Of a DNA stretch of 64,000 nt, positions 16,361 through 46,730 are shown piece by piece. A model generated the notes under the pieces. It did no database searches. It saw nothing but the letters and a program-made list of their open reading frames with translations, and had not been told where the DNA came from. The position numbers were made by a program, and so were the translations under genes. The first letter of the stretch is position 1; each line of letters begins with the position of its first letter. The DNA comes from Novakomyces olei (Eukaryota; Ascomycota; Novakomycetes; Novakomycetales; Novakomycetaceae). The stretch covers positions 1,169,001 through 1,233,000 of the forward strand of contig JADEYG010000009.1 of assembly GCA_016906335.1 (NCBI GenBank). Reading direction: 5' to 3'.

Positions 16361-16746
16361 TGTAGAAATTTAATTTGGCTTGTTGTAGAGAATAGTGTTG
16401 TATCTCCTTTTAGCTACTTTTGTAAGTCTACTGACGCTGTACTATATAGTTTTTTTGTTTTTTGGTTCCAGCCACCGAGTTACACTTTGGTAGCGCAAGC
16501 CTCTTTGTACTCAGTTCCAGCCACTCCAGCCACTCCAGCCACTCCAGCCACTCCAGCCACTCCAGCCACTCCAGCCACTCCAGCCACTCCAGCCACTCCA
16601 GCCACTCCAGCCACTCCAGCCACTCCAGCCACTCCAGCCACTCCAGCCATTCCAGCCACTCCAGCCACTCCAGCCTTTCCTCCTCTTTTCTGTAGCCAGC
16701 CTTCCTGTTCTTTTTCTGTGACGTCCAAGCTTGACATATTCCTATA
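16361..16746 (-). repeat. 3' LTR of Copia A2 with about 17 minisatellite copies
   Basis: 386 bp. The 9-bp minisatellite fills about 16519-16670. The 5' LTR of the same element has only about 4 copies. The pol frame runs from the RNase H end straight into this LTR. Confidence 0.9.
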
Positions 16747-18174: not shown

Positions 18175-18179
18175 CTCTG

Positions 18180-18579
18180 TGTTATGGTTGTAGAAGGCGA
18201 AAGCCTAAAGGAGAACCCAATTGCCGGATTTCACGCCGGCTCTGGGACTATGAGAAAATTAAGAGATAGAACTGGGTTTAAAAGATTGGGTCTCCCCAAA
18301 GTTCGATTACACGTAGCGAGGAAAGTAGAAGCAGGACCTCTATTTATATCCTCGCTACGTAGAATATTCTAGAAACACTAACTACTTAAACGATTAAACA
18401 AACTAACAAGTAAAAGCAGTCAGAACAATAATAGTCAATAAATAATAAATAATAAGTAAATATTTAAATAAATATTCAATATTAAATAAAGACAACAAAC
18501 AAATAATAATATAGCGCTTCAATAGCGTCGGTGCTATCGAAGACGCAATAACAATATAGAAATAAATTAAATCGTAACA
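18180..18579 (-). repeat. 3' LTR of Gypsy G1
   Basis: 400 bp, identical by eye to 31011-31410. The stop codon of the JmjC ORF abuts its edge at 18580. It contains the TATA box and the self-primer partner ATTACACGT (+ strand, 18306-18314). Confidence 0.93.
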
Positions 18580-18600
18580 CTACTCTCCCCTCCCGAGGCG
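18580..18600 (-). promoter_or_regulatory. Polypurine tract of G1, overlapping the JmjC stop
   Basis: In element sense a run like CGGGAGGGGAGAGTAG ends exactly at the LTR. It encodes the last residues Gly-Arg-Gly-Glu and the stop of the JmjC protein. The copy at 46279-46295 has the same arrangement. Confidence 0.85.
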
Positions 18601-19617
18601 TAACACCTGTAAGCCCGAATAAATAAACTTCTTTTTCGCGTTGTAATAAGCAGGAAGAGTGGCTCGGTAAACTTCAATTGCTTCCTGGTGCTCGTTCTCA
18701 ACTTGAAGTTCCAAATCCGTTCCTTTTGCACTCTCAGCATCCCACATGGCTAGACGCTTGAGACGCGAATGGGTGTATGCAAACGAGTACCCAGTGATAA
18801 TAGAGTTCTCGAGGGTCATTACCGCATGTAACGTCCCCGGTTCCATTGTCATTGCTTTCCCGGCTGTCAAGAATGTTAACTTGAGGCCGCACAGAGAGCG
18901 AATCGCTAGTGGTAAGAATAGATCCCCGTGGCGACGGTGTCTGGGTCCAAACAGACGTAAGTTCTCATCCGTCGGGGGCCAGGTAAAAACAAGTTTCTTG
19001 CCAGAGAGACACATAATTGTGTTGGCCAAGAGAATGTTGTCGGCATGAACATCGGTTATAAGAGGCGCTGGCGATGCAGCAGACAGCCAAAGAGAAGCTA
19101 GATTCTGATGCTGTTTTAAAGGCGTGAGCAGCCTCATCGTATCCCCACTCGGGACAATGTTGTACGCCGCAACTCCATCGGTCTTTGATGTAAAGAATTG
19201 TAGTACAAAGTTAGACACATGGACTTCGTTGTCCAATTCGCGAACGTTCGTCTTTGCAAAGCTGCACGAGCTTCCGTGTAGAAGATCTTTGATAACGTTT
19301 TCGGCAAACTTTTCGTTATCATGCGTCTCTGGTTGGCATATCTGTGGCTTCTTTTGGGTAGCCCTTTGCAGTATCGAGATGCCCAAGTCGTAGTTTGTGG
19401 CATTTTCTGCATTCTTTTTCCATAACTGTAAACTTTCTTTTAGCACCTTGTTGTGCGTGTGCTCATGTCTCGAAAGTTCGCTGGCGCGATAAAATCGTGC
19501 GTCGCAAAGATCGCAGGGGATCGGTCCCATGCCTTTGCGTCGTCGCTTACCTCCCCCCTGAACTGGTGAGGTCTCCGAGGCGTCAAAATATTGTGTTGGG
19601 GACGAGGCGTTTGACAT
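18580..19617 (-). CDS. C2H2 zinc finger plus JmjC-domain protein carried by Gypsy G1 (345 aa)
   Basis: The frame encodes a basic N-terminus (GGGKRRRKG), one C2H2 finger (C35, C38, H51, H55) and a JmjC-like domain at about 140-285. The iron-binding pattern H191-x-D193 with a distal His264 in PGTLHAV is visible, with KLVFTWPP between. JmjC proteins are Fe(II)/2-oxoglutarate hydroxylases, many of them histone demethylases; the substrate here is unknown. It lies 190 bp after pol in the same sense. Its last codons and TAG stop form the polypurine tract, so it is part of the element. A second copy of the tail is at 46115-46295. Capture of a host gene by a chromovirus is the likely origin. Function is inferred. 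Confidence 0.85.
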   Translation of the reverse strand: MSNASSPTQYFDASETSPVQGGGKRRRKGMGPIPCDLCDARFYRASELSRHEHTHNKVLKESLQLWKKNAENATNYDLGISILQRATQKKPQICQPETHDNEKFAENVIKDLLHGSSCSFAKTNVRELDNEVHVSNFVLQFFTSKTDGVAAYNIVPSGDTMRLLTPLKQHQNLASLWLSAASPAPLITDVHADNILLANTIMCLSGKKLVFTWPPTDENLRLFGPRHRRHGDLFLPLAIRSLCGLKLTFLTAGKAMTMEPGTLHAVMTLENSIITGYSFAYTHSRLKRLAMWDAESAKGTDLELQVENEHQEAIEVYRATLPAYYNAKKKFIYSGLQVLRLGRGE

Positions 19618-19807: not shown

Positions 19808-22800
19808 TCAATATAGCGTAAGAGAAAGTGAAGACGCTAAATTCTTCCTTTTAGTATGATATTCGGCAACAGCCTCTTGTGCATGACTTAAATTGCTGTA
19901 TGGCTCCCAAGTGCAATCGTCTGGTCCATACCCTTTCCAGTGCACTAAATATCGTATTCCGCGACCGCGCCCTTTGTGTTGCACAATATGATCCACTTCA
20001 TATTCATTTGTTTCTTCCAATATATCCGGTACAACAAGATCTGTCGGGTCTCGATTAAAACGGTCTGGCTTGTGTGGTTCCAACATTGTTTCGTTAAATA
20101 CATCATGTACTTTTATATGTGCTGGTAGTTCCACTCGATAAGCACTCCTCCCAATTCGTTCAATAACTTTGAAGGGTCCGATGTGTATGTGATCAAATTT
20201 TTCACTTGGTCTTTCACTTCGTATATGCGTTTTACGAATCCAGACAAGGTCTCCTGGTTCATAAACCGGTCCTGGTCGTACTTTTCTGTCGTAAAACCTC
20301 TTCATTCGCGTGGCGTTGTCATTCAATAATTCATTGATTTTCTCAAAATGATGACTCCAATTCGTGGCAGTCTCATTTGCCGTAGGATTTTCTGTTTCCT
20401 GTCCATTTAAAGATAATCTCGGGTGATATCCATAACAAATAAAATAAGGCGATTGCTGTGTAGCGCTGCTAACTGAGTTATTCATAGCAATCTCTGCAAA
20501 CGGTAGCAAAGTTATCCAGTTCGTCTGGTAATAGTTCACATAGCATCTCAAGTATTGCTCCAATGTTTGATTCATCTTCTCAGTCTGACCATCAGTCTGT
20601 GGATGATGACTGGTCGACTTATTCAACGTAATTCCCAATTGTTTCGCTAAACAGGTCCAAAATTTACTCACGAATTTAGGATCTCTGTCTGAAATGATTT
20701 CGTCAGGAAGCCCATGTAAGCGTACAATCTCTGAAATAAACTTTGTCGCTAACTCTTGAGCTGTGACAGCTTCTTTAATCGGAATAAAATGCACCATTTT
20801 AGAAAATCTGTCCACCACAACCCATATAGAGTCAAATCCTCCCGCTTGTGGTAATTTAACAATAAAATCCATAGATATAGATTTCCATGGTCTGGTCGGA
20901 CTTGGTAGTGGATTTAGTAATCCCGTTCTTTTGTGGCGCGTTGTCTTGTTTCTCATACATGTTGTACAAGCTTGAACATAATCTGTAGCATCCTTTGTAA
21001 GGCCTGGCCATGTAAAATGTCTTTTCAGCAGTGCGATTGTTTTTGCTGTCCCAAAATGACCTGCTAGGGGATGGTCATGAGCCTGTGACAATACTTTAAT
21101 TCGATCCTTCTCATCGACAAATAATTTAGTTGGCATAGCGATTGCTGTTTCTGCCTGCTCTTGAGAATCTCCTGTGGTTTGATCAGTTGTAATAGCATTT
21201 GCAAACAATTCTGGTGCTAGCAATATGCGCTGTTGGTTGTCCATATAATTGCTTTTCTTTAATTCATTTAACTCGGTACGTCGACTTAGAGCATCAGCAC
21301 CTCCATTTGCTGATCCCTTTCGGTACGTGATTACAAAATTATACTCTGATAAGACTTCGGCCCATCTCGCCTGTCTTCTAGAGAGCGGTTTCGTCGTTGT
21401 AAATGTCTGTAAGTTGCGATGGTCTGTGTAGACAATAATTGGTATAGCATGACCTTGCAAATACGTTCTCCAAACTTTGAAAGCCCAAACTATAGCTAAC
21501 AACTCTTTATCATGTATGTCGTAGTTAGTCTCTGCTGGTGTAAGCTTTCGGCTTATAAATGCAACTGGTCGTCTGCCTTTTTCTGGCCCTTGCGTCAACA
21601 CTGCTCCGAGTGCAAAATCAGACGCATCCGTTTCGATAATACATTGTTGATCTGGGTCATAGTGTTGTAGCATCACATCGCTAACGAAACATTTTTTCAA
21701 TTTAGCAAAGCTTTCCTGCTGCTCTGTCTCCCATATAAACTTTTCATTTTTCTTTAGCGTTCGTGTTATCGGCAACGCTATCTTCGCAAAATCTTTTATA
21801 AATCTCCTGTAGTAGTTGCAAAAACCAAGGAAGACTTGAACATCGTGCACAGATCTTGGTGGCTCCCATTGCAAAATAGGTTCCCTTTTATCTGCGCACA
21901 TCGACACTCCATTCGTCGATAAGTTGTAACCAAGAAATTCGACGCTTTCTTTGTGAAATGCGCATTTCTCGTCCTTAGCATAAAGATTATTCTCTCTCAA
22001 TCTTCTTAATACTTCTTTCACATCGTTCACATGCGATTCCCTATCGCGTGAAAATACCAAAATGTCGTCCAGATAGATTAACACTTTGTAATCTAATAAA
22101 TCTCGAAACACATCATTCATCAAGTTTTGGAACGTGGCGGGTGCATTGGTAAGACCAAAAGGCATGACCAAATATTCGAAATGCCCGTACCTTGTTCGAA
22201 AGGCAGTCTTCCATTCATCCCCTTCTTTTATCCTGATAAGATTGTATGCTCCTCTGAGATCGATTTTTGACATAATCTTAACTCCAGTAAGTTTGTCAAT
22301 AAGGTCATCGATACGTGGGATTGGGTACTTGTTCTTGATAGTAATCGAATTCAATCCACGATAATCGACACACAATCGTAATTCTCCATTTTTCTTTGGT
22401 ACAAATAGAACTGGCGCTCCTGCAGGCGACTTGGAACGACGTATAAATCCCTTAGCCAAGTTCTCTTCCAAATAATCCAATAAATACTTCTGTTCCTTTG
22501 GGTTGACACTGTAGACTGGCCCGAAAGGTACAACAGAATCCTTTGTTAGTTCGATCTCGTGATCGTAACTTCTGTGTGGAGGCAATGTTTCCACGTTCTT
22601 TTCTTCAAACACATCTTTAAAGTCAGTATACTCTGGTGGTATTGTATTTGTAACCATCTCTTCATCCGTGGTAATACTGCTCAACTGTATATTCAAAATT
22701 TCGTCTTTCACCGTAGGAGTACTTGCATTGCGAGGCTTTATAGTTCCATTAATCCAATCAATATCTGGATTGTGCTTCTGAAACCATGGTAACCCAAGGA

Positions 22801-23206
22801 TGGCGTCGTTCTTGCCAATATTGGTAACAAGGAATGATTCTTCAGATACAAAACCTTGTACATCGACATGTAGATCCTTCGTCTTTATGGGTACTCCACC
22901 TCGTGCAATATGCTTTCCATTTGCAACTCTGACAAATATAGGTGTTTTCAGACGTTCGGTCTCGGCCTTAAGTGCCAAAACAGTTCTTGGATTAATAAAA
23001 TTAGTGTCTGACCCACTGTCTAGTAGCACTTTAATTCTCTTGCCGTTTACAACACACGACAACTCAAACCTCCCATAAGGTTTATCGTCTGGTGGCTTTT
23101 TCTGTGCCATCACCCCTAGAGACACCACCGTCGGCTCTAGGCTTGGCCTTTTAAATTCTTCGAATCCTCTGCTCTCACATCTCTCGCAGGATATGGTGCA
23201 GGACAA
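19808..23206 (-). CDS. Gypsy G1 Pol with C-terminal chromodomain
   Basis: About 1130 residues. Retropepsin DSGSD (63-67), reverse transcriptase with LCVDYRGLN and YLDD (about 377-381), and RNase H (TDASDFALG, TDHRNLQTF) come first. The HHCC and DDE integrase follows (CTTCMRNK; MDFIVKLP; HHPQTDGQTEKMNQ). A GPF motif and a chromodomain (YLVHWKGYGPDDCTWEP, about 1060-1105) close the protein. The chromodomain places it among chromoviruses, whose integrases read histone marks, often H3K9me. It overlaps gag at 23137-23206, as expected for gag-pol frameshifting or re-initiation. No break seen. Confidence 0.92.
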   Translation of the reverse strand: MSCTISCERCESRGFEEFKRPSLEPTVVSLGVMAQKKPPDDKPYGRFELSCVVNGKRIKVLLDSGSDTNFINPRTVLALKAETERLKTPIFVRVANGKHIARGGVPIKTKDLHVDVQGFVSEESFLVTNIGKNDAILGLPWFQKHNPDIDWINGTIKPRNASTPTVKDEILNIQLSSITTDEEMVTNTIPPEYTDFKDVFEEKNVETLPPHRSYDHEIELTKDSVVPFGPVYSVNPKEQKYLLDYLEENLAKGFIRRSKSPAGAPVLFVPKKNGELRLCVDYRGLNSITIKNKYPIPRIDDLIDKLTGVKIMSKIDLRGAYNLIRIKEGDEWKTAFRTRYGHFEYLVMPFGLTNAPATFQNLMNDVFRDLLDYKVLIYLDDILVFSRDRESHVNDVKEVLRRLRENNLYAKDEKCAFHKESVEFLGYNLSTNGVSMCADKREPILQWEPPRSVHDVQVFLGFCNYYRRFIKDFAKIALPITRTLKKNEKFIWETEQQESFAKLKKCFVSDVMLQHYDPDQQCIIETDASDFALGAVLTQGPEKGRRPVAFISRKLTPAETNYDIHDKELLAIVWAFKVWRTYLQGHAIPIIVYTDHRNLQTFTTTKPLSRRQARWAEVLSEYNFVITYRKGSANGGADALSRRTELNELKKSNYMDNQQRILLAPELFANAITTDQTTGDSQEQAETAIAMPTKLFVDEKDRIKVLSQAHDHPLAGHFGTAKTIALLKRHFTWPGLTKDATDYVQACTTCMRNKTTRHKRTGLLNPLPSPTRPWKSISMDFIVKLPQAGGFDSIWVVVDRFSKMVHFIPIKEAVTAQELATKFISEIVRLHGLPDEIISDRDPKFVSKFWTCLAKQLGITLNKSTSHHPQTDGQTEKMNQTLEQYLRCYVNYYQTNWITLLPFAEIAMNNSVSSATQQSPYFICYGYHPRLSLNGQETENPTANETATNWSHHFEKINELLNDNATRMKRFYDRKVRPGPVYEPGDLVWIRKTHIRSERPSEKFDHIHIGPFKVIERIGRSAYRVELPAHIKVHDVFNETMLEPHKPDRFNRDPTDLVVPDILEETNEYEVDHIVQHKGRGRGIRYLVHWKGYGPDDCTWEPYSNLSHAQEAVAEYHTKRKNLASSLSLTLY

Positions 23207-23793
23207 TACTTCGAAACATGTCCTTCTTCATTGCAACGATAACATTTGACCTTAAAGCCAACATGCTTCGGTTTAGCGTTCCTGTTAGCACGGACGCTAT
23301 CTTTCAAACTTGCTCTTGTCTCCAAAAAGTCAACTTCCATAGGTGTATAACCAGCCGAGCCCACTCCACGGTACTCCGGTATTCTCTTCACCGTTCTGGT
23401 TCTAGCCTTGCTTCGTTCAAACAAGCGAGTATCAATCTTAACGCATTCTTCAATGAGCTTCTCAAGCTCTTCTGGCGGATCGCGACGAGCCAATTCGTCT
23501 TTGATATCCTCTTTAAGTCCTTCGTAGAACTGCGCAACGAGCGCATCGTTGTTCCACGTAAGCCACGACTTAACACGCTCAAACTCTGTGGCATAATGCG
23601 ACACGGATCCCTTCTGTCTCAATAAGCGGATCTGTCTTTCAGCCGTTCTGCGGACGTCCCTGTCCCCGAACATTTTCTCCAAGGTTTGGCAAAAATTGTT
23701 AAAATCGTCAAGTATGGCGCCATTGTCGCTACGGACATGTGGCTCAAACCATTTAAAAGCAACTCCCCTAAGGTAGGAGGCTGCAAACATAAC
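23137..23793 (-). CDS. Gypsy G1 Gag, C-terminal part
   Basis: The frame holds the retrotransposon Gag core (FAASYLRGVAFKWFEPH, SHYATEFERVKSWLTWN) and one CCHC knuckle (CYRCNEEGHVSKYC). Its N-terminal part lies across the G2 insertion at 30708-30957. The target duplication ACGCT marks the cut. Confidence 0.85.
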   Translation of the reverse strand, partial: VMFAASYLRGVAFKWFEPHVRSDNGAILDDFNNFCQTLEKMFGDRDVRRTAERQIRLLRQKGSVSHYATEFERVKSWLTWNNDALVAQFYEGLKEDIKDELARRDPPEELEKLIEECVKIDTRLFERSKARTRTVKRIPEYRGVGSAGYTPMEVDFLETRASLKDSVRANRNAKPKHVGFKVKCYRCNEEGHVSKYCPAPYPARDVRAEDSKNLKGQA

Positions 23794-23798
23794 ACGCT

Positions 23799-24504
23799 TG
23801 TGAGGTGGCCCTTAGAGGGGAGCACCGCGGTGTAAACTCGCGTGTCGCTACAGGCGAACACGGACTGTCCTTTGCGAGACCGCTCGACAAAGGAAGTTCA
23901 ATCGGGTACCGCGCGAAGCGAGTACCGAGAAACGGGAACGTAGACTTGCGCCCGGCGCAAGAACTAAGGAAAAAGAAAAGGACGTTGTCCTTGAAAAGGC
24001 GACGGCGCTTCTCTAAAGCTTACCTGCTACAAGGCTATGTAGCAACTTTGAGATTATAAGCCCGTGGAGAGAGTTCTCTCCATGGGCGACTATGTAGACT
24101 ATCCTATGAGGCTTAGCGGCTCGCTTAGCCACTTCGCGGCCTAAGCCTCATCCCACCACGATCTCAATGCGATGGTCCCAGACCATCCGCATTGGGAAAG
24201 CGGTGGCGAGCTATGAACTCTATGGATCGATCTATCTAGCTTCGTAGCGATGCGCGATCGCTACTACTACTGTCATGCGCCGCGACGTGCCTACGTCGCG
24301 CGGGCATGGACGTGGACCTGCTTCGCGCGAGCCAGGTCCAACCTGCTCGCGAGCTAGGCCACTTACGCGCTTCGCGCGAGTAATGTCCAACATTACCTCG
24401 CGCGAGCTATTTAGATCTATCTAGCCTGAAGTCATCGCCTTTGGCGCTACAGGACTTCAGGCGTCGTTCGCTGTCGTGGTTCACGCGAGGCGGGGATCAT
24501 GACA
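23799..24504 (-). repeat. 3' LTR of Gypsy G2 (family K)
   Basis: 706 bp, TG...CA, GC-rich with many short inverted repeats. A solo copy is at 59901-60557. The polypurine tract (AGAAAGGGGGGATAG in element sense) borders it at about 24505-24519. Confidence 0.92.
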
Positions 24505-24567
24505 CTATCCCCCCTTTCTAGGGCGAGGTCTCCGCGCCTATGAAAACCACGTTAGCTACTAGACTGC

Positions 24568-24575
24568 TATATAAG
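24568..24575 (+). promoter_or_regulatory. TATA box for the antisense ORF of G2
   Basis: TATATAAG lies 49 bp before the first ATG (24624) of the antisense ORF, outside the LTR. It suggests that this gene has its own promoter reading into the element against pol. Confidence 0.55.
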
Positions 24576-24623
24576 TGCGCTTTCGGCAATAAAACTATCT
24601 AAGTAATATAAAGTAATTCGCGG

Positions 24624-25124
24624 ATGCAAAACAAGAATTTTCGCTCTGCGTTCCGGATCAACAACAACATGTCGCTTGTTCATGTCAGAGATGCTATCGT
24701 GCCCTGCGAGTATTGCGTGGCAAACTCTTTGCCGTGCCGCTTCGTTCTCGGCACTGCACCGTTTGTGCGTCGCTGTATGGTCTGCGCGGCACGTCGCACC
24801 CGTTGCGAAGGAGGCCGTTTTCTTCATGACAATGAGGAGAACGAGCGCCTTGTTGCCGCGCGTGAAGAACAGCGTGTGAGAGAGCGCGAGGAGCTGCAGC
24901 GTCGCCGCGAAAGACGTCGCGCGCGACAGCGAGCGCAGGAGGAAAGACGTCAGGCACCATTCGAGGTGCATGTAATTGCCGATGACGGTCCTCCGTCAAC
25001 AAATTCGATCGTCGGTTCGGTTTCGAGTGCGCTGGCCCAGCGCGATGCGACTATCGCTCGCCTCGAGCGCCGCAACCGTGCGTTGGAGCGCGAGATTCTT
25101 TCGCTCCGTGCCGCTCGTCCGTAA
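24624..25124 (+). CDS. Zn2Cys6-like, coiled-coil protein encoded antisense in Gypsy G2 (166 aa)
   Basis: The six cysteines C28-x2-C31-x6-C38-x12-C51-x2-C54-x6-C61 follow the spacing of the fungal Zn(II)2Cys6 cluster. The basic residues sit in the second half (CAARRTRC) and not the first, so it is not a classical Gal4-type domain. An Arg/Glu-rich coiled coil (about 72-112) and a second heptad-like stretch (about 138-163) suggest dimerisation. It points opposite to pol, between pol and the 3' LTR, behind its own TATA box. M16 (24669) is an alternative start. Relatives with the same pattern are at 47940-48356 and 39459-39806. A DNA- or RNA-binding regulator of the element is a guess. Confidence 0.75.
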   Translation: MQNKNFRSAFRINNNMSLVHVRDAIVPCEYCVANSLPCRFVLGTAPFVRRCMVCAARRTRCEGGRFLHDNEENERLVAAREEQRVREREELQRRRERRRARQRAQEERRQAPFEVHVIADDGPPSTNSIVGSVSSALAQRDATIARLERRNRALEREILSLRAARP

Positions 25125-25351
25125 TTGTGTGCGTGACTCAACAGCCATTCCTCCTTGCGTTGTCCCATATTATTTGTTCGACAAGTAATTGAATATGTTT
25201 TTGTATAATTTTCTCGTAATAATTTAAACAATAATAATCGCGGTATAATCAATAAATCAATAAATCACTTTAAGAGTTGAGTCTTAGTTTCGCGTGGGTG
25301 ACGAAAGTTGAAGGTCGTCGCCCGAATAGGGAGCTCGCTTAGCATTCCCAT
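25125..25351. other. Spacer between the antisense ORF and pol of G2
   Basis: AT-rich spacer between two convergent frames. No terminator could be defined. Confidence 0.5.
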
Positions 25352-28300
25352 TTAAGAACCAGGTTTGTTCGGGTGTGCACGGTGGAATTCGTTTACCAAA
25401 TCCATGCAGTTGTGTAAATGTTTCGCAGGCTCCCACGTGCGGTCGGAGGCGTCGTAGCCTTTCCAATGCACATAATATTGAAGTTGCTTGCGTCGGATGC
25501 GCGAGTCTAGAACTTGCTCGACTTCCCATTCCGGGTTAGCATCCAATATAACTGGCGGTGGTGGCGCGATCTGTTCTCGCGCGATCTGCGACACTGCGTT
25601 ATGTCGCTCTAGCAATGAAGCGTGGAAGACAGGATGTATACGCATTGCCTTCGGTAGTTCCAAGCGATATGCACGCAAACCAACGCGTGCGATAATCCTA
25701 AACGGTCCCAGCTTCTTGGCATCCAGCTTATCGCATGGCCGCGTAGTGCTAATATTTTTTCGCACTAGCCAGACTTGATCGCCAATAGCAAAACTTTTGT
25801 CGACGCGATGCTCATTTGCAAAGCGCGCCTGGTCGCTGAGGGACTTTTCGATTTCGACTTTCAATAAGCGATGTAGATTCCGTAGGTATTCGATACGTTC
25901 ATCCGCCGATGGGCATTGTCGCGAAGATGAAATCGTAAAGCGACATTTCGGGTTGTAGCCGTAAAAAGCGTAAAACGGTGTTGTCTTTGTAGACGACTGC
26001 TCTGAATTGTTGTACGCGAATTGAGCAAAAGGTAACAAATTGACCCAATTGCTTTGCTGATAGTTGCTGTAGATCCTCAGATATTGCTCTAAGATCTGGT
26101 TAAGCCTCTCTGTTTGGCCGTCGCTCTGTGGGTGGTACGCGGTAGACAACTTCTGCTGTATATCGCATTGCGAAAGCAAGTGTCGTGTAAACTGCGATAC
26201 AAATACCGAACCCCTGTCAGAGACTATTTCGTCTGGTAGGCCATAGTTGGCAAATACGCGATGGGCGTAAATCAAAGCTAGCTCAGTAGCCTTAATAGAT
26301 TCGCGTATTGGTATAAATATTCCGATTTTCGTAAATCGACAGGTGATTACCCATATGGAGTCGTAGGTTTTTTGTGTAATCGCATCGCGCGACTCCGGTA
26401 ATTTCACAATGAAGTCCATTGAGATACTTTCCCAGGGTCTCGCTGGTACTCTCAGTGGGTGTAGTAGTCCATACGGTGCATGTCGCGAAGGCTTGTTTCG
26501 CGCACAAGTATCGCACGACTCGACGTAGCTAAATATCTCTTTTCGCATGCGTGGCCAATAGTAGTTTCGCATGACTAAGTCCAACGTTTTGGCCTGGCCA
26601 GGGTGACCCGCGACATGCGAATCATGGCATGTCTGTAGTATAGCTAATCGCAAACGATTGTCGTTTGGGATGTATAGCAAACCCGAAAACGTTAGAAGAC
26701 CCTTTTCGTTTATACTGTAGTTTCGCAGATGTTCCGACACTGGCTGCTTGCCGAGGTCCTCCATGACAACCTTGCAAGTCTTGTCTTTACCGTAACATTG
26801 TTTAATCTGATCATCAATGCCTGTATCTTCTGCGGTCGCGAACAGGAAGTGCGATCTGTCCAATAGTGCCATAGTTCGCTCTGGTTTCTCCTGTTCCTTA
26901 TCGCCGACATAATCGCTTCGCCTAGACAAGGCATCCGCTTTGTGATTTAGCTTTCCAGCACGGTATTCAATAACGAAATCATAGGAAGCGATCAATTGCG
27001 ACCATCGCATCTGTCTACGGCTAAGTACTCTTGCTGTAAGAAAGTACATGAGATTGCGGTGATCCGTATAAATTGTAGTGCGATGTAACGGACTCTCCAG
27101 GTAAACTCGCCATTCGCGAAGACATGCGACAATAGCTAACAGCTCTTTGTCGTAGATATCATAGTTTACTTCCGCGCTAGTCATTTTTCGCGAGTAGAAC
27201 GCGATGGGTCTCATTTCGTCGCTGTTGTCTTTCTGCGAGAGAATCCCACCGATCGCGAAGTCCGATGCGTCGGTTTCCAAATAACTTGGCTTCTGCGGGT
27301 CGAAATGCGCAAGGATCGGCGCACCCAGAAAAGCGTTCTTCAGAGTTTGGAAAGAGTCAATGCACTCCTTGGAGAAATTAAACTGCGCATCCTTCTTCAG
27401 TAAGCGGGTGAGAGGGATGGTAATTTTGCTGTAGTTTGCAATAAATCTGCGATAGTAATTTGATAGGCCTAAGAACGACATAACGTCTTTCGCGTTCTTG
27501 GGTTCAGGCCATGTCTCAATAGAATCAACTTTCGCTTTCTCCATAGACACTCCTTTCGTAGAGACAACAAAGCCTAGGAACTCTGTCGTGTCTGTGTGGA
27601 ACTCGCATTTCTCTAGTTTCACAAATAAGTTTGCTTTGCGAAGTCGTTTCAGTACTTCGCGAACATGCGTCACATGCTCCTCCTCGGTGTCCGAATAGAT
27701 CAAGATGTCGTCCAAGTATACAACAGCAAAGCGATCCAGACAATCGCGTAATGTGTCGTTCGCAAGAGCTTGGAAAGATGCCGGGGCGTTCGTGAGCCCG
27801 AAAGGCATAACCTGATATTCGTAATGTCCATAACGCGTACGGAAGGCGGTTTTCCACTCGTCGCCTTCGCGTATACGGACAAGATTATACGCGCCACGGA
27901 GATCTAATCGCGTAAATATCGTCGACTGACGAATGCGATCCAATAGCTCCGATATGAGCGGCAGCGCATAGCGATTTTTGACAGTTACCGCGTTTAGCCC
28001 GCGATAATCTACGCACAGTCTCAGCGAACCGTCCTTCTTTTTCACAAAAAGAATTGGAGCCCCCGCGGGCGATGAAGACGGCCTAATGAATCCCTTCGCT
28101 AGATTGTCTTTAATGTAGTCGCGTAGTGTTTGTAGCTCGCGTTCGGCCAGAGGATATATAGGCCCGAACGGCGGCTTCGCGCCTTCTGTCAACGGTATTG
28201 CGTGATCCCACGCCTGATGCTGTGGTAGAATGTCTGCATTTCTTTTCTCAAAAAGATCGCGAAAGTCTGCATACTCGGGAGGTATAGCGACGTTTTTGTC

Positions 28301-28834
28301 CTCGCTTTTAGCGTCGGTCGCGTATACGCACAGCAATCCCGAGTCGTTGCCTCGCGATAGCTTAGCAAATTCCGTCGCACTGATTTGCGATGGTTCGTCT
28401 TGTGCCTCGGGCTTCTTGAGGCAGTTTGCTAAGCAATAGGAAGACTCGAATTCGACTTTTGCACGTCTCCATGCAATCCTTGGCTCATGTTTGTCGAGCC
28501 ATGGCTTTCCTAAAATAACGTCGTGTCCAGAGAGCGGTATCACGTTAAACATCATAGTCTCGCGATGTTCGCCTATGGTGACCTCCATGTTTTCAGTCTG
28601 GAAGCGAACACCTCCGGTGCGAATCGCTCTTCCATCCACAACTCGTAGTGGCTCAATCTTCGCCTTCTTCGTTATATCGATTATGCTTCTCGTAGCAAGG
28701 CTCTGGCTGATAAAATTCGACGTCGCGCCTGAGTCGATCAGCGCCTTCGCGTCCAGCTGGCCCTTGCTAGTTCTCAAATTTGCAGTAACTGTGAGATGTA
28801 TTCCTCTGTCAGGTTCGGGTACCACTGACATCAC
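25352..28834 (-). CDS. Gypsy G2 Pol with C-terminal chromodomain
   Basis: 1160 residues. They show retropepsin (IDSGATSNF), reverse transcriptase ([24 protein letters not shown] near 372) and RNase H ([20 protein letters not shown]). An HHCC/DDE integrase follows (CDTCARNKPSRH, MDFIVKLP, YHPQSDGQTERLNQ), then GPF (KLGPFRIIARVG) and a chromodomain (YYVHWKGYDASDRTWEP, about 1105-1145). It sits just after gag. No break seen. It is closest to G3. Confidence 0.92.
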   Translation of the reverse strand: MMSVVPEPDRGIHLTVTANLRTSKGQLDAKALIDSGATSNFISQSLATRSIIDITKKAKIEPLRVVDGRAIRTGGVRFQTENMEVTIGEHRETMMFNVIPLSGHDVILGKPWLDKHEPRIAWRRAKVEFESSYCLANCLKKPEAQDEPSQISATEFAKLSRGNDSGLLCVYATDAKSEDKNVAIPPEYADFRDLFEKRNADILPQHQAWDHAIPLTEGAKPPFGPIYPLAERELQTLRDYIKDNLAKGFIRPSSSPAGAPILFVKKKDGSLRLCVDYRGLNAVTVKNRYALPLISELLDRIRQSTIFTRLDLRGAYNLVRIREGDEWKTAFRTRYGHYEYQVMPFGLTNAPASFQALANDTLRDCLDRFAVVYLDDILIYSDTEEEHVTHVREVLKRLRKANLFVKLEKCEFHTDTTEFLGFVVSTKGVSMEKAKVDSIETWPEPKNAKDVMSFLGLSNYYRRFIANYSKITIPLTRLLKKDAQFNFSKECIDSFQTLKNAFLGAPILAHFDPQKPSYLETDASDFAIGGILSQKDNSDEMRPIAFYSRKMTSAEVNYDIYDKELLAIVACLREWRVYLESPLHRTTIYTDHRNLMYFLTARVLSRRQMRWSQLIASYDFVIEYRAGKLNHKADALSRRSDYVGDKEQEKPERTMALLDRSHFLFATAEDTGIDDQIKQCYGKDKTCKVVMEDLGKQPVSEHLRNYSINEKGLLTFSGLLYIPNDNRLRLAILQTCHDSHVAGHPGQAKTLDLVMRNYYWPRMRKEIFSYVESCDTCARNKPSRHAPYGLLHPLRVPARPWESISMDFIVKLPESRDAITQKTYDSIWVITCRFTKIGIFIPIRESIKATELALIYAHRVFANYGLPDEIVSDRGSVFVSQFTRHLLSQCDIQQKLSTAYHPQSDGQTERLNQILEQYLRIYSNYQQSNWVNLLPFAQFAYNNSEQSSTKTTPFYAFYGYNPKCRFTISSSRQCPSADERIEYLRNLHRLLKVEIEKSLSDQARFANEHRVDKSFAIGDQVWLVRKNISTTRPCDKLDAKKLGPFRIIARVGLRAYRLELPKAMRIHPVFHASLLERHNAVSQIAREQIAPPPPVILDANPEWEVEQVLDSRIRRKQLQYYVHWKGYDASDRTWEPAKHLHNCMDLVNEFHRAHPNKPGS

Positions 28835-28878
28835 CTCCGAAAGCCTCGTGTCATTAACGCCCAGATCAGGCCTTTCTT

Positions 28879-29826
28879 TTAGACCTGGGCTCTCGCTTTT
28901 CCCGGTTCCGTGATACTGTCCATAACCACCGAGATGCGTTGCTCATAATTGCGTTGCTTCTGTTTGCAATCACGTGCGCGATGACCTTCGCGTCCGCACG
29001 TAAAACATCTGTTCTCTTTCTTTCGACGCTGGCGTTCGTCGCTGGTAATGCTCTTCTTTTCGTAACTGGTAGCATCTACCTCCATGGGAGTGTATCCTTT
29101 GTTCGCGATCGTCGCGCCCCTATAGCCTGAAGCGCCCTTGGCGTTCGTACGGCTAGCGCTTTCGTAGTAACGATCCGACAACCTTTCGTCCACGCGTACA
29201 GACTTCTCAATTAAGTCTGACAATGTACGCGATTTTTCCAACCGAGATAATTCGTCCTTAATTCGATCTTTCAATCCTTGATAATATTCGTAGCGTAAAC
29301 TGTGATCGCTAAAATCCAAGTGCGAAGTGATCTGCTGAAAACGCGAAGTATACTCAGCAACAGATCCTCGCTGTTTGAGCAATGCTAGCTCCCGCTCAGC
29401 CTGACTAATGCGGTCGACGCTCCCAAATGTCGTGGAGAGCTCGTCGCAAAACAGGGCAAAGTCACTGGTAATTAGGCTTTCATCGTGGTCGCGCAAGTGG
29501 GGTTCAAACCACGCAAAAGCGGCACCGCGCAGATAAGATACCGCAAACAGGACCTTCGCTTCGTCGTTGCGAAACTCATGTGGCTTGAGTCTCACGTATA
29601 AGCGAACCTGTGCAAGGAAAGTATCCACCGATCTGCGATCGCCTCTGAATGTATCCGGCTTCGAAATGCTTGGCCCTTCGCTGACTCCTGATCGTCGAGA
29701 TCCCCGGGATCCCATTTCCTGGCGAAGGCCTTCAATAACCGATTTGTCCTTAACGCGCTCCTCTTGGAGCGACGCGATCTGCGCCTGCAGCGTCTGCAGA
29801 AACGCGTTCAAGTCCTCTTGACTCAT
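28879..29826 (-). CDS. Gypsy G2 Gag (315 aa)
   Basis: Starts MSQEDLNAFLQTLQ with an N-terminal coiled coil. The retrotransposon Gag core follows (FAVSYLRGAAFAWFEPHL, YYQGLKDRIKDELS), and one CCHC knuckle (CFTCGREGHRARDC) near the end. It would build the particle and bind RNA. The G3 Gag at 52038-52970 is clearly homologous. Confidence 0.92.
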   Translation of the reverse strand: MSQEDLNAFLQTLQAQIASLQEERVKDKSVIEGLRQEMGSRGSRRSGVSEGPSISKPDTFRGDRRSVDTFLAQVRLYVRLKPHEFRNDEAKVLFAVSYLRGAAFAWFEPHLRDHDESLITSDFALFCDELSTTFGSVDRISQAERELALLKQRGSVAEYTSRFQQITSHLDFSDHSLRYEYYQGLKDRIKDELSRLEKSRTLSDLIEKSVRVDERLSDRYYESASRTNAKGASGYRGATIANKGYTPMEVDATSYEKKSITSDERQRRKKENRCFTCGREGHRARDCKQKQRNYEQRISVVMDSITEPGKARAQV

Positions 29827-29981
29827 CGTAATTCAATAATTCGTTTGTGCTGCTAAACCGTAGCAAAGCACCCTTCGTCGCAACAACTTAGTGCGAAATA
29901 AAACTTGTAAATCGAAATCTGTGTACGCCTCCGTGCGTGACACCTTTCAACGCCGTGTAAATCTGTAGCTTAGACGAGCTG

Positions 29982-29994
29982 ACGGGCTTATAAT
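29982..29994 (-). promoter_or_regulatory. Self-primer binding site of Gypsy G2
   Basis: In element sense ATTATAAGCCCGT lies 2 nt inside the 5' LTR. It is the exact 13-nt reverse complement of ACGGGCTTATAAT in the LTR (+ strand 30251-30263). That partner starts 31 nt after a TATA-like CTACATAG. This is the Tf1/sushi self-priming layout, in which the 5' end of the RNA primes minus-strand synthesis. Confidence 0.85.
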
Positions 29995-29996
29995 AG

Positions 29997-30702
29997 TGTA
30001 AGGTGGCCCTTAGAGGGGAGCACCGCGGTGTAAACTCGCGTGTCGCTACAGGCGAACACGGACTGTCCTTTGCGAGACCGCTCGACAAAGGAAGTTCAAT
30101 CGGGTACCGCGCGAAGCGAGTACCGAGAAACGGGAACGTAGACTTGCGCCCGGCGCAAGAACTAAGGAAAAAGAAAAGGACGTTGTCCTTGAAAAGGCGA
30201 CGGCGCTTCTCTAAAGCTTACCTGCTACAAGGCTATGTAGCAACTTTGAGATTATAAGCCCGTGGAGAGAGTTCTCTCCATGGGCGACTATGTAGACTAT
30301 CCTATGAGGCTTAGCGGCTCGCTTAGCCACTTCGCGGCCTAAGCCTCATCCCACCACGATCTCAATGCGATGGTCCCAGACCATCCGCATTGGGAAAGCG
30401 GTGGCGAGCTATGAACTCTATGGATCGATCTATCTAGCTTCGTAGCGATGCGCGATCGCTACTACTACTGTCATGCGCCGCGACGTGCCTACGTCGCGCG
30501 GGCATGGACGTGGACCTGCTTCGCGCGAGCCAGGTCCAACCTGCTCGCGAGCTAGGCCACTTACGCGCTTCGCGCGAGTAATGTCCAACATTACCTCGCG
30601 CGAGCTATTTAGATCTATCTAGCCTGAAGTCATCGCCTTTGGCGCTACAGGACTTCAGGCGTCGTTCGCTGTCGTGGTTCACGCGAGGCGGGGATCATGA
30701 CA
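29997..30702 (-). repeat. 5' LTR of Gypsy G2
   Basis: 706 bp, differing from the 3' LTR at one base that I can see. It contains the self-primer partner at 30251-30263. Confidence 0.92.
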
Positions 30703-30707
30703 ACGCT

Positions 30708-30957
30708 GCCGATCCGTGCTGTATCGTTCCGGTTGTCCCGCGATGACCATCTGGACATGGGTCAGAAAATCCCCCGTTTGCGAACGATCGCCCGAAAAGT
30801 ACGGCGGAGGAGCAAGCTTAGGCTCCTTGGTGCGCGTGTTGGACACGATTCCATTAGCGGCGCGAAGTCGCTCACTAAGGCTCTGGTTTTCCGTTTCGAG
30901 TCTCTCGAGGCGAGCCGTCGTTTGCTCAAGAAACGATTGTAGCTGCTGATAATCCAT
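30708..30957 (-). CDS. Gypsy G1 Gag, N-terminal part
   Basis: Starts MDYQQLQSFLEQ with a heptad-rich coiled coil and then the beginning of the Gag core (YFSGDRSQTGDFLTHVQM). It is cut by G2, beyond which Gag continues at 23793. Confidence 0.85.
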
Positions 30958-30999
30958 CGTAAAAAGCTCGAAGAAAACGTCACAGTCCCCGAATCGTGG

Positions 31000-31010: not shown

Positions 31011-31410
31011 TGTTATGGTTGTAGAAGGCGAAAGCCTAAAGGAGAACCCAATTGCCGGATTTCACGCCGGCTCTGGGACTATGAGAAAATTAAGAGATAG
31101 AACTGGGTTTAAAAGATTGGGTCTCCCCAAAGTTCGATTACACGTAGCGAGGAAAGTAGAAGCAGGACCTCTATTTATATCCTCGCTACGTAGAATATTC
31201 TAGAAACACTAACTACTTAAACGATTAAACAAACTAACAAGTAAAAGCAGTCAGAACAATAATAGTCAATAAATAATAAATAATAAGTAAATATTTAAAT
31301 AAATATTCAATATTAAATAAAGACAACAAACAAATAATAATATAGCGCTTCAATAGCGTCGGTGCTATCGAAGACGCAATAACAATATAGAAATAAATTA
31401 AATCGTAACA
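31011..31410 (-). repeat. 5' LTR of Gypsy G1
   Basis: 400 bp, TG...CA, identical by eye to its partner at 18180-18579. Confidence 0.93.
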
Positions 31411-31415
31411 CTCTG

Positions 31416-36439: not shown

Positions 36440-37289
36440 GCTTATCAATCTCATAGAAGCCTCCTTTGCCCTAGCAGCCTCTTTTGCCCTGGCGACCTCC
36501 TTCGCCAGGGCAGCCTTTGCAATACCTATGGCCTTTGCAGCCTCTTCGACCTTTGTGTTACGGTGCGCTATATGAGGCGCTAGCTAGCGCTGAAGATAGC
36601 GCTTTTACATCCTTTAATTTGTCTTGTTTCACTTTATTTTGTGTTACGACTTCTATTTTTAATTAGTTCTATTTATAACTCTTAGCTTCTATTTTTAGAT
36701 AGCAACTTAGTTAGTTTAATTAGTTTAGCTTGATTAGTTTCTCGGGTTAAGCCCCACGGAGCGTCATAAGAATGGGACACTCCCCTCTTATGTTCGCTAC
36801 GTGTAATCAAACCTTGGTGTGCAATATTTTGGTTTTCTATTACTAGGTTCCCTACTTTCCACGTATCCTCAACAGAGCCAGCGTGAGATCTGGCATATTT
36901 ACCTTATTGCACCTTTACGACTTTTTGGAAGTAAAGCCCCCATAACACTTTGCAACCTCGATTTTCGCCTTTGCAATTTCAGCCTCTAATAGGCTAAACT
37001 CGGCGATCGATTTTCGCTCGGCGAAACGATCAAGCTCTTGGACTTCCTTGTATACCCGCAATGCAGTCGTATCAAAAGACTTGCCAACGTAAATTAAAAT
37101 CAAAATCAAAAGCAAGAAGACAAAAGCCTTTAATTGGCAACCGTAGCAAAACATCTTTTTTCGTAGAAAGCTTTTTACAGAATCAGCGCGGATCTTTACA
37201 CCTGTGTTTGGTTTCCTGTGGGAGCGCTTTAGGGGAGAGGGCAACGCCTTTTCATCATGAAGCTTTTTGTCATGGTTCGTACCTGACAT
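36440..37289 (-). pseudogene. Single-pass membrane, coiled-coil protein linked to LTR family P (fossil)
   Basis: The frame starts MSGTNHDKKLHDEK at 37289. A basic stretch (SPLKRSHRKPN, FLRKKMFCYG) is followed by one clear membrane helix (KAFVFLLLILILIYVG). Next comes a Lys/Glu/Ala heptad region (FSLLEAEIAKAKIEVAK), so it would be a small membrane protein with a coiled coil behind the membrane. A family L solo LTR (36556-36947) splits it; Ala/Lys/Glu-rich coding sequence is seen on both sides. Its leader is shared with the LTR P copy at 40264-40631, including the first codons, so it seems to be carried by family P. Identity unknown; I do not assign it to envelope proteins. Confidence 0.55.
36556..36947 (+). 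repeat. Solo LTR of family L
   Basis: 392 bp with target duplication CTTTG at 36551-36555 and 36948-36952, TG...CA-type ends, sitting inside the membrane/coiled-coil frame. Confidence 0.9.
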
Positions 37290-46114: not shown

Positions 46115-46730
46115 AGCTCAAAGACATGAAACGCATTCCTTGGTAGCGTCTAGCTGTGAAGTATGCACAGATTGCGAAACGAGCACGGAGAAGGAAATTG
46201 CTATATACAGAACACTCAACCGACGTATTACGAAGCGAAAAAGGAATTTTATTTATTCAGGCTTACAGGTGTTACGCCTCGGGAGGGGAGAGTAGTGTTA
46301 CGATTGAATTTATTTTTATATTGTTATTGCGTCTTCGATAGCACCGACGCTATTGAAGCGCTAGTCTATTATTTGTTTGTTGTCTTTATTTAATATTTAA
46401 TATTTAATATTTATTTATTTATTATTTATTATTTATTATTTATTATTTATTTATTTATTATTTATTATTTATTGACTATTATTGTTCTGACTGCTTTTAC
46501 TTGTTAGTTTGTTTAATCGTTTAAGTAGTTAGTGTTTCTAGAATATTCTACGTAGCGAGGATATAAATAGAGGTCCTGCTTCTACTATTCTCGCTACGTG
46601 TAATCGAACTTTGGGGAGACCCAATCTTTTAAACCCAGTTCTATCTCTTAATTTTCTCATAGTCCCAGAGCCGGCGTGAAATCCGGCAATTGGGTTCTCC
46701 TTTAGGCTTTCGCCTTCTACAACCATAACA
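46115..46730 (+). mobile_element. Truncated second copy of Gypsy G1: JmjC tail and 3' LTR
   Basis: Codes for the last 60 or so residues of the JmjC protein (ending FIYSGLQVLRLGRGE at 46295) and continues directly into a G1-family 3' LTR (46296-46730). The LTR is 435 bp because a TATTTATT microsatellite (about 46389-46468) is expanded. The match outside the final 25 residues is weak, so this copy is an older or different subfamily. It lies between two Copia A pieces. Confidence 0.8.

Follow-up and report, generated by a model that had tools for sequence, protein, structure and literature searches.

The window, a stretch of 64,000 nucleotides of contig JADEYG010000009.1 from Novakomyces olei, contains a Gypsy-type retrotransposon, G1, which lies on the reverse strand. 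Its 3' LTR (18180..18579, minus strand, TGTTACG...CATAACA) and its 5' LTR (31011..31410, minus strand) are identical at 400 of 400 bp, and the target-site duplication CTCTG is present on both sides (18175..18179 and 31411..31415). G1 is inserted in a copia element, the halves of which flank it to the left and right. The pol gene (19808..23206, minus strand) encodes protease, reverse transcriptase, RNase H, integrase and, at its C-terminus, a chromodomain (19850..20002, minus strand); it gives the Pfam matches expected of a chromovirus, namely RVT_1 (E 6e-39), RT_RNaseH (1e-38), Integrase_H2C2 (2e-20), rve (2e-8) and Chromo (1.2e-15).

Between pol and the 3' LTR, in sense with the element, lies an ORF of 345 aa (18580..19617, minus strand), the stop codon of which abuts the LTR. 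The encoded protein carries a C2H2 zinc finger at residues 35-55 (19453..19515, minus strand), with the pattern C35-x2-C38-x12-H51-x3-H55, and a JmjC core at residues 177-282 (18772..19089, minus strand) that contains T188 and the ligands H191-x-D193 ... K208 ... H264. These features agree with a first-pass annotation, which had described a chromodomain Gypsy element with identical LTRs and a sense ORF combining a C2H2 finger and a JmjC-like H-x-D...H motif. Its description of gag-pol as complete was mistaken for the copy in the window, in which a second chromovirus, G2 (23799..30702, minus strand), splits gag. The larger 3' part of gag is at 23137..23798 (minus strand; ORF 23137-23790), while the leader and gag start are at 30703..30998 (minus strand; 98% identical to copy L010). 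G2 has its own target duplication, ACGCT, and LTRs identical at 705 of 706 positions; it is nested inside G1 and is the younger of the two. Between its pol and 3' LTR, G2 bears an antisense accessory ORF of 166 aa (24624-25124, plus strand).

The window contains further repeat material. An older remnant at 46170-46730 comprises a G1 gene tail and LTR (89%), and a lone LTR remnant of a related family, family B, is found at 36556-36947 (98%). In a copia-like region, an array of approximately 18 copies of a 9-bp unit (TCCAGCCAC) at 16516-16677 overlaps two ORFs, 168 and 516 aa in length.

Recurrence of the JmjC gene and its place in the element

A search of the source genome (14.34 Mb, 15 contigs) revealed at least 49 matches to the JmjC gene. 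By sequence they make up seven or more families, here called A, B, C, D, F, G and H; identity to P0001 is 30-40% for members of families B to H. Flanks were inspected in 20 stretches of about 10 kb and four smaller ones, and the remaining places were judged by coordinates. In all seven families a sense pol with a chromodomain lies upstream of the gene. Subtracting three host matches (one in a Clr4-like protein, the others within a single frame of 1408 aa) from the 81 Chromo matches leaves 78 chromodomains, 26 of which are followed by a sense JmjC gene within 1.5 kb downstream and one by an antisense copy. Eighteen have an antisense Zn2Cys6-like gene behind them instead, and 33 have neither accessory gene, the latter including lineage K (described below), other pol lineages, at least one family C copy (C7:9041) from which a nested insertion seems to have displaced the gene, and possibly two more host genes. 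Viewed from the gene, 28 of the at least 49 matches are so placed behind a chromodomain, the other 21 being mostly short pieces.

Two findings that the first-pass annotation had named as evidence against an element-borne gene, homologs occurring only as single-copy host genes and G1 copies in which pol joins the LTR cleanly with no ORF between, were not encountered. Among the matches listed that exceed 850 bp, 22 of 24 lie behind a chromodomain, and this also rules out a host gene caught accidentally beside one LTR. Two near-full-length copies are exceptions: C1:1015002 is closely preceded by fragments of a pol RT, and at C9:1643364 the 5 kb examined gave no match to pol. All six chromodomain-retaining copies of the G1 family keep the gene: the copy in the window, C2:57971, C7:1737787 and C7:4783, and two older ones, C2:26250 and C1:1004862. 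Besides the window copy, three G1 copies of about 6.3 kb have paired LTRs and the gene in place, and lack the G2 insert (C2:53474-59793, C7:1733288-1739609 and C7:285-6605). Paired LTRs also enclose the gene in three family B elements (C2:1071368-1077833, C2:1082411-1088873 and C3:1727823-1734287), each with LTRs 100% identical to the query, in one family D element (C3:1422142-1428846) and in three family H elements (C9:7687-14211, C1:1057244-1063770 and C1:8785-15318). Identical or near-identical LTRs indicate recent insertion. The anatomy of the element and its recurrence within this genome are, in sum, strongly supported.

The JmjC-bearing elements live in nested-repeat islands. Forty-two of the at least 49 gene places occupy 22 bins of 100 kb, compared with approximately 36 bins expected for a uniform distribution, and for 18 of these 42 a contig end is no more than 60 kb away, as counted with the lengths of all contigs but two. 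Clusters are found, for example, at C1:1.00-1.08 Mb, C3:1.35-1.44 Mb, C7:1.72-1.74 Mb, C9:1.19-1.23 Mb and at contig ends.

Related chromoviruses differ in what follows pol. Lineage K is represented by three copies with a pol about 56% identical to that of G1 (C2:1682392-1685595, C3:1719370-1722396 and L029:3713-4873 with L041-L043), and the seven-family profile found no JmjC gene in the 1.1-2.1 kb downstream of these pol genes (best E 0.92), which disfavours a general need for the gene. Low-complexity repeats were observed downstream of lineage K pol. The accessory ORF of G2 gave 21 matches in the genome, 11 at 97-100% identity, seven in a second family at 34% and three pieces; 18 of the 21 lie behind a chromodomain, always in antisense, and the JmjC gene accompanies this gene at none of the 78 chromodomains. 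A cysteine pattern, C-x2-C-x6-C-x12-C-x2-C-x6-C, is kept in the one member inspected from each of the two families (relatives include L047:288-719, minus strand), and its spacing is that of fungal Zn2Cys6 regulators; Pfam Zn_clus matched the G2 ORF at E 0.65 only. The predicted product likely contains a coiled coil besides the cysteine motif. Judged by these patterns, a sister clade of the JmjC-bearing chromoviruses carries a conserved antisense, putatively Zn2Cys6-like gene in the same slot.

LTR junction, selection and descent

Nothing separates the TAG stop codon of the G1 JmjC gene from the 3' LTR. In families A, D and H, for which the boundary was set by paired LTRs, the LTR likewise starts right after the stop, and in family B, by the same measure, its first base is 11 nt beyond the stop. 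In families C and F the LTR also begins at the stop as judged from the terminal motif TGTYA...TAACA alone, and in family G a search with this motif gave no clear LTR start. The last codons of the gene in G1 form a purine run, GGGAGGGGAGAG (18583..18594, minus strand), and in families A, C, D, F and H such a run occupies the place expected of the plus-strand primer site, which by this position it likely is. Given the contact between stop and LTR and the terminal purine run, the gene and the end of the element are fitted to each other. Upstream of the gene start, branch-point-like motifs occur in an inconsistent pattern, as concerns the question of splicing or an internal promoter.

An alignment with one member per family shows 31 of 345 residues to be invariant across the seven families, among them C35, C38, H51, H55, H191, D193, H264, K208 and T188. 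The probability that the eight named ligands (without T188) would all fall among the invariant residues is 1.7e-9 by the hypergeometric test. In 37 profile hits, a set that includes overlapping loci and broken copies, the ligands never vary among the rows that reach their positions (25 to 31 rows per position). Within families, dN/dS is 0.19 in A, 0.18 in D and 0.28 in H (Fisher P 1e-5, 3e-5 and 5e-7, respectively), and a second, partial pair from family D gave approximately 0.22. The A pair and the H pair each include one broken copy, a bias that runs against the result, and the ratios were calculated within families only, as synonymous sites are saturated between them (A/B and F/G undefined; C/D dS 2.7). 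The JmjC gene is under purifying selection. A chance ORF or motif is ruled out by the ligand invariance across seven families and by the within-family dN/dS values.

A tree of the gene and a tree of a 217-aa integrase piece recover the same pairs, A+B, C+D and F+G, the deeper branches of both being weakly supported. The integrase tree allows a single change between presence and absence of the gene (support 20/39) and is compatible with one gain by a chromovirus clade.

No relative of the gene was found outside this genome at E 1e-3, either with the single sequence (1363 candidates) or with the seven-family alignment (5263 candidates), and 24 pattern matches in viral contigs included none. For G1 pol, the same database contains at least 7946 relatives among the best 8000 candidates at E 1e-20, with 38-55% identity among the 120 matches listed. 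Close species may simply be absent from the database, and restriction of the gene to one genome does not follow.

Predicted identity of the C2H2-JmjC protein

With the 345-aa sequence alone, Pfam reported the finger only, at E 0.0022 and below its cut-off, and gave no JmjC match, while phmmer against the PDB reached a KDM7 homologue at E 0.16 and KDM2A at E 0.26; the single sequence speaks weakly for a JmjC identity. The seven-family profile, by comparison, found KDM2A in the PDB at a significant E of 6.5e-6, its best match apart from fingers, and in the alignment the HxD...H triad and the lysine fall on the same residues of KDM2A. In such domains the triad binds Fe(II), and the lysine, here K208, binds 2-oxoglutarate. 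In both proteins the lysine follows the first iron ligand by 17 residues, and the second histidine follows it by 73 in the G1 protein and by 72 in KDM2A. Pfam searches with the seven members matched 11 families at E up to 1, with PF02373 (JmjC) not among them; weak matches were to cupins. A C2H2 finger but no CXXC or F-box was found in these members, and the PHD model matched one of the seven at E 0.029, with no PHD above noise. Lacking these domains above noise, the protein was not filed as KDM2 or KDM7.

Structure prediction gave a model with pLDDT 81 and pTM 0.81, two of the five models being near 61. With this predicted fold, Foldseek placed KDM2/7 first, before KDM6, JMJD6, FIH and TYW5, at low TM-scores of 0.39-0.49. 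In the VIA fold ranking, PHF2 and KDM7 stood level with or slightly above KDM2A, differences in Z of less than 1 counting as ties. The predicted double-stranded beta-helix is closest to that of KDM2/7, a group near which Epe1 of fission yeast, an anti-silencing JmjC protein, also lies.

Of the host's own JmjC genes, a KDM2-like gene at C9:624004 was the best match of the seven-family profile (hhalign E 3e-9). Four others gave E 7e-5, 0.0014, 0.25 and 0.56, against 0.41 for an Argonaute control; targets were single sequences, the two weakest aligned outside the JmjC part, and the comparison covered five of the six PF02373 places, the sixth (C3:988694) being a match of 28 positions that contains a stop. 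The match to C9:624004 supports the JmjC type of the element's protein rather than descent from that gene.

A possible role against host silencing, and known systems

RNA polymerase II subunit 2 of the host reaches 1945 bits with PDB 3h0g/5u0s, from fission yeast, compared with 1699, 1649 and 1398 bits for the groups that come next; the host would thus be a fungus close to Schizosaccharomyces, probably in the Taphrinomycotina. The host genome has one Pre-SET place, which encodes a protein with a chromodomain, Pre-SET and SET and with Clr4 as its best PDB match (approximately 3e-82), and a Piwi search found one Argonaute. These two proteins make it probable that the host has both H3K9-type silencing and RNA interference. 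In addition to three long RNA polymerase subunit genes, the genome has three short Rpb2-like pieces at C12:1275135-1275607, two of which contain a stop; they may be what is left of a polymerase gene of foreign or plasmid type.

A KDM2/7-type JmjC domain with intact ligands, encountered in a host with a Clr4-type H3K9 methyltransferase, makes the anti-silencing role proposed in the first-pass annotation plausible, and the gene most likely encodes a demethylase-type anti-silencing factor of the element. The main reading, to which we assign a probability of roughly 55%, is that a chromovirus clade gained a C2H2-JmjC gene between pol and the 3' LTR and kept it as an anti-silencing demethylase. The gene would have been acquired, most simply once, and retained while at least seven families diverged. 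Its protein would be made from the element, enter the nucleus and be recruited to chromatin by the finger and the basic N-terminus, or by the integrase complex of the element. There it would strip lysines of repressive methylation, most probably that placed on H3K9 by the Clr4-type enzyme, and heterochromatic copies would be kept transcribable while the integrase chromodomain steers insertion into the same chromatin. A single finger is rarely enough for sequence-specific DNA binding, which counts against the proposal. H3K9 is favoured as the substrate by the presence of the host writer, by the reported targeting of integration to heterochromatin by chromodomains of this element class, as cited in PMC9289625, and by the removal of H3K9me2 by KDM7-type enzymes (PMC4687429).

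Other roles must be weighed against demethylation of H3K9. JmjC and cupin folds serve many substrates, and C2H2 fingers can bind RNA too, both of which would suit a 2-oxoglutarate oxygenase with another job, such as capsid, ribosomal or RNA-linked hydroxylation or the guidance of integration. The weak cupin matches point the same way, as does the RNA-demethylating ALKBH5-type oxygenase of an orchid Gypsy element (PMC9289625). However, the profile finds KDM2/7 by sequence and the fold search ranks KDM2/7 first, and another oxygenase function is considered unlikely, though it is the alternative to be taken most seriously. The protein might instead oppose silencing mainly by non-catalytic means, through occupancy or disruption of heterochromatin complexes, and would then resemble Epe1 in part: the N-terminal portion of Epe1 prevents ectopic H3K9 methylation independently of JmjC, and the demethylase activity of Epe1 had gone undetected in vitro (PMC6576747, PMC4687429). 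A purely structural domain would have no need of iron and 2-oxoglutarate residues, yet all are invariant, so that this explanation, too, is improbable and ranks next.

Demethylation of H3K36, with an effect on transcription or targeting rather than on H3K9 silencing, is suggested by KDM2A, the top PDB match outside fingers and an enzyme that acts on H3K36 (PMC4687429). The level or slightly higher fold rank of PHF2 and KDM7 speaks against this substrate, but these are ties that decide little, and an H3K36 target is regarded as quite improbable. Least credible, to the point of being nearly dismissed, is a passenger, a captured host fragment functionless in the element. The absence of the gene from lineage K and the many fragmentary or broken matches would fit a passenger, but purifying selection, seven families, invariant ligands and pairings that match pol do not.

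A broader proposal extends the anti-silencing reading to both clades. In the chromoviruses of this fungus, the pol-3' LTR junction may be a dedicated slot for chromatin regulators, filled by a sense H3K9-erasing KDM2/7-type demethylase or, in the sister clade, by an antisense Zn2Cys6-type protein, with targeting and anti-silencing coupled; this is tentative, and its chances are put at slightly under even. How LTR retrotransposons living in heterochromatin are transcribed is an open question, to which a chromodomain integrase and a histone-demethylase-like gene in one element would, if the reading is true, be a direct answer. The presence of the gene suggests that a mobile element can supply a tool of its own to counter chromatin silencing by the host. 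Such an element would also make the question testable with one gene in fission yeast, the Clr4 silencing pathway of which the host appears to have as well, and it offers a small JmjC protein that is itself under selection.

Judged by title and the opening of the abstract, none of the open-licence papers found in literature searches reports an LTR element with a JmjC gene, and the terms jmjc and jumonji are absent from the accessible text of the papers closest in subject (PMC6338049, PMC5890265, PMC7264820, PMC5408684, PMC9289625 and PMC6431247). A histone-demethylase-type gene in a chromovirus appears to be new, whereas enzymes captured by LTR elements (DNA methyltransferase, ALKBH5-like) and anti-silencing encoded by transposable elements (VANC) are already known. 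G1 has in common with other chromoviruses the LTRs, a target duplication of 5 bp, gag, and a pol that combines RT, RNase H, integrase and chromodomain; it differs in the extra sense C2H2-JmjC gene at its 3' end, with terminal codons that form a purine run beside the LTR. With KDM2/KDM7 (JHDM1) its protein shares the predicted fold and T-x-x-H-x-D; it differs in being short (345 aa) and element-borne, and in having a C2H2 finger and, above noise, no PHD, CXXC or F-box.

VANC, encoded by Arabidopsis VANDAL DNA transposons, undoes host silencing and causes loss of DNA methylation through binding of a repeated motif (PMC5735166, in the available text of which jmjc and jumonji do not occur). Anti-silencing was shown there and is proposed for the G1 gene, and the class of element differs. 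Retrotransposons of dinoflagellates and charophytes have, like G1, acquired a DNA- or chromatin-modifying enzyme, but theirs is a DNMT that adds cytosine methylation (PMC5890265, from the available text of which the word demethylase is also absent). The orchid Gypsy element is alike in that an extra ORF encodes an Fe(II)/2-oxoglutarate enzyme which the element has captured, with RNA demethylation demonstrated in vitro (PMC9289625); it is a plant element, and its enzyme belongs to the AlkB family, not to JmjC, and acts on RNA m6A. If the proposed role is correct, histone demethylation would join this short list of modifying enzymes captured by retroelements.
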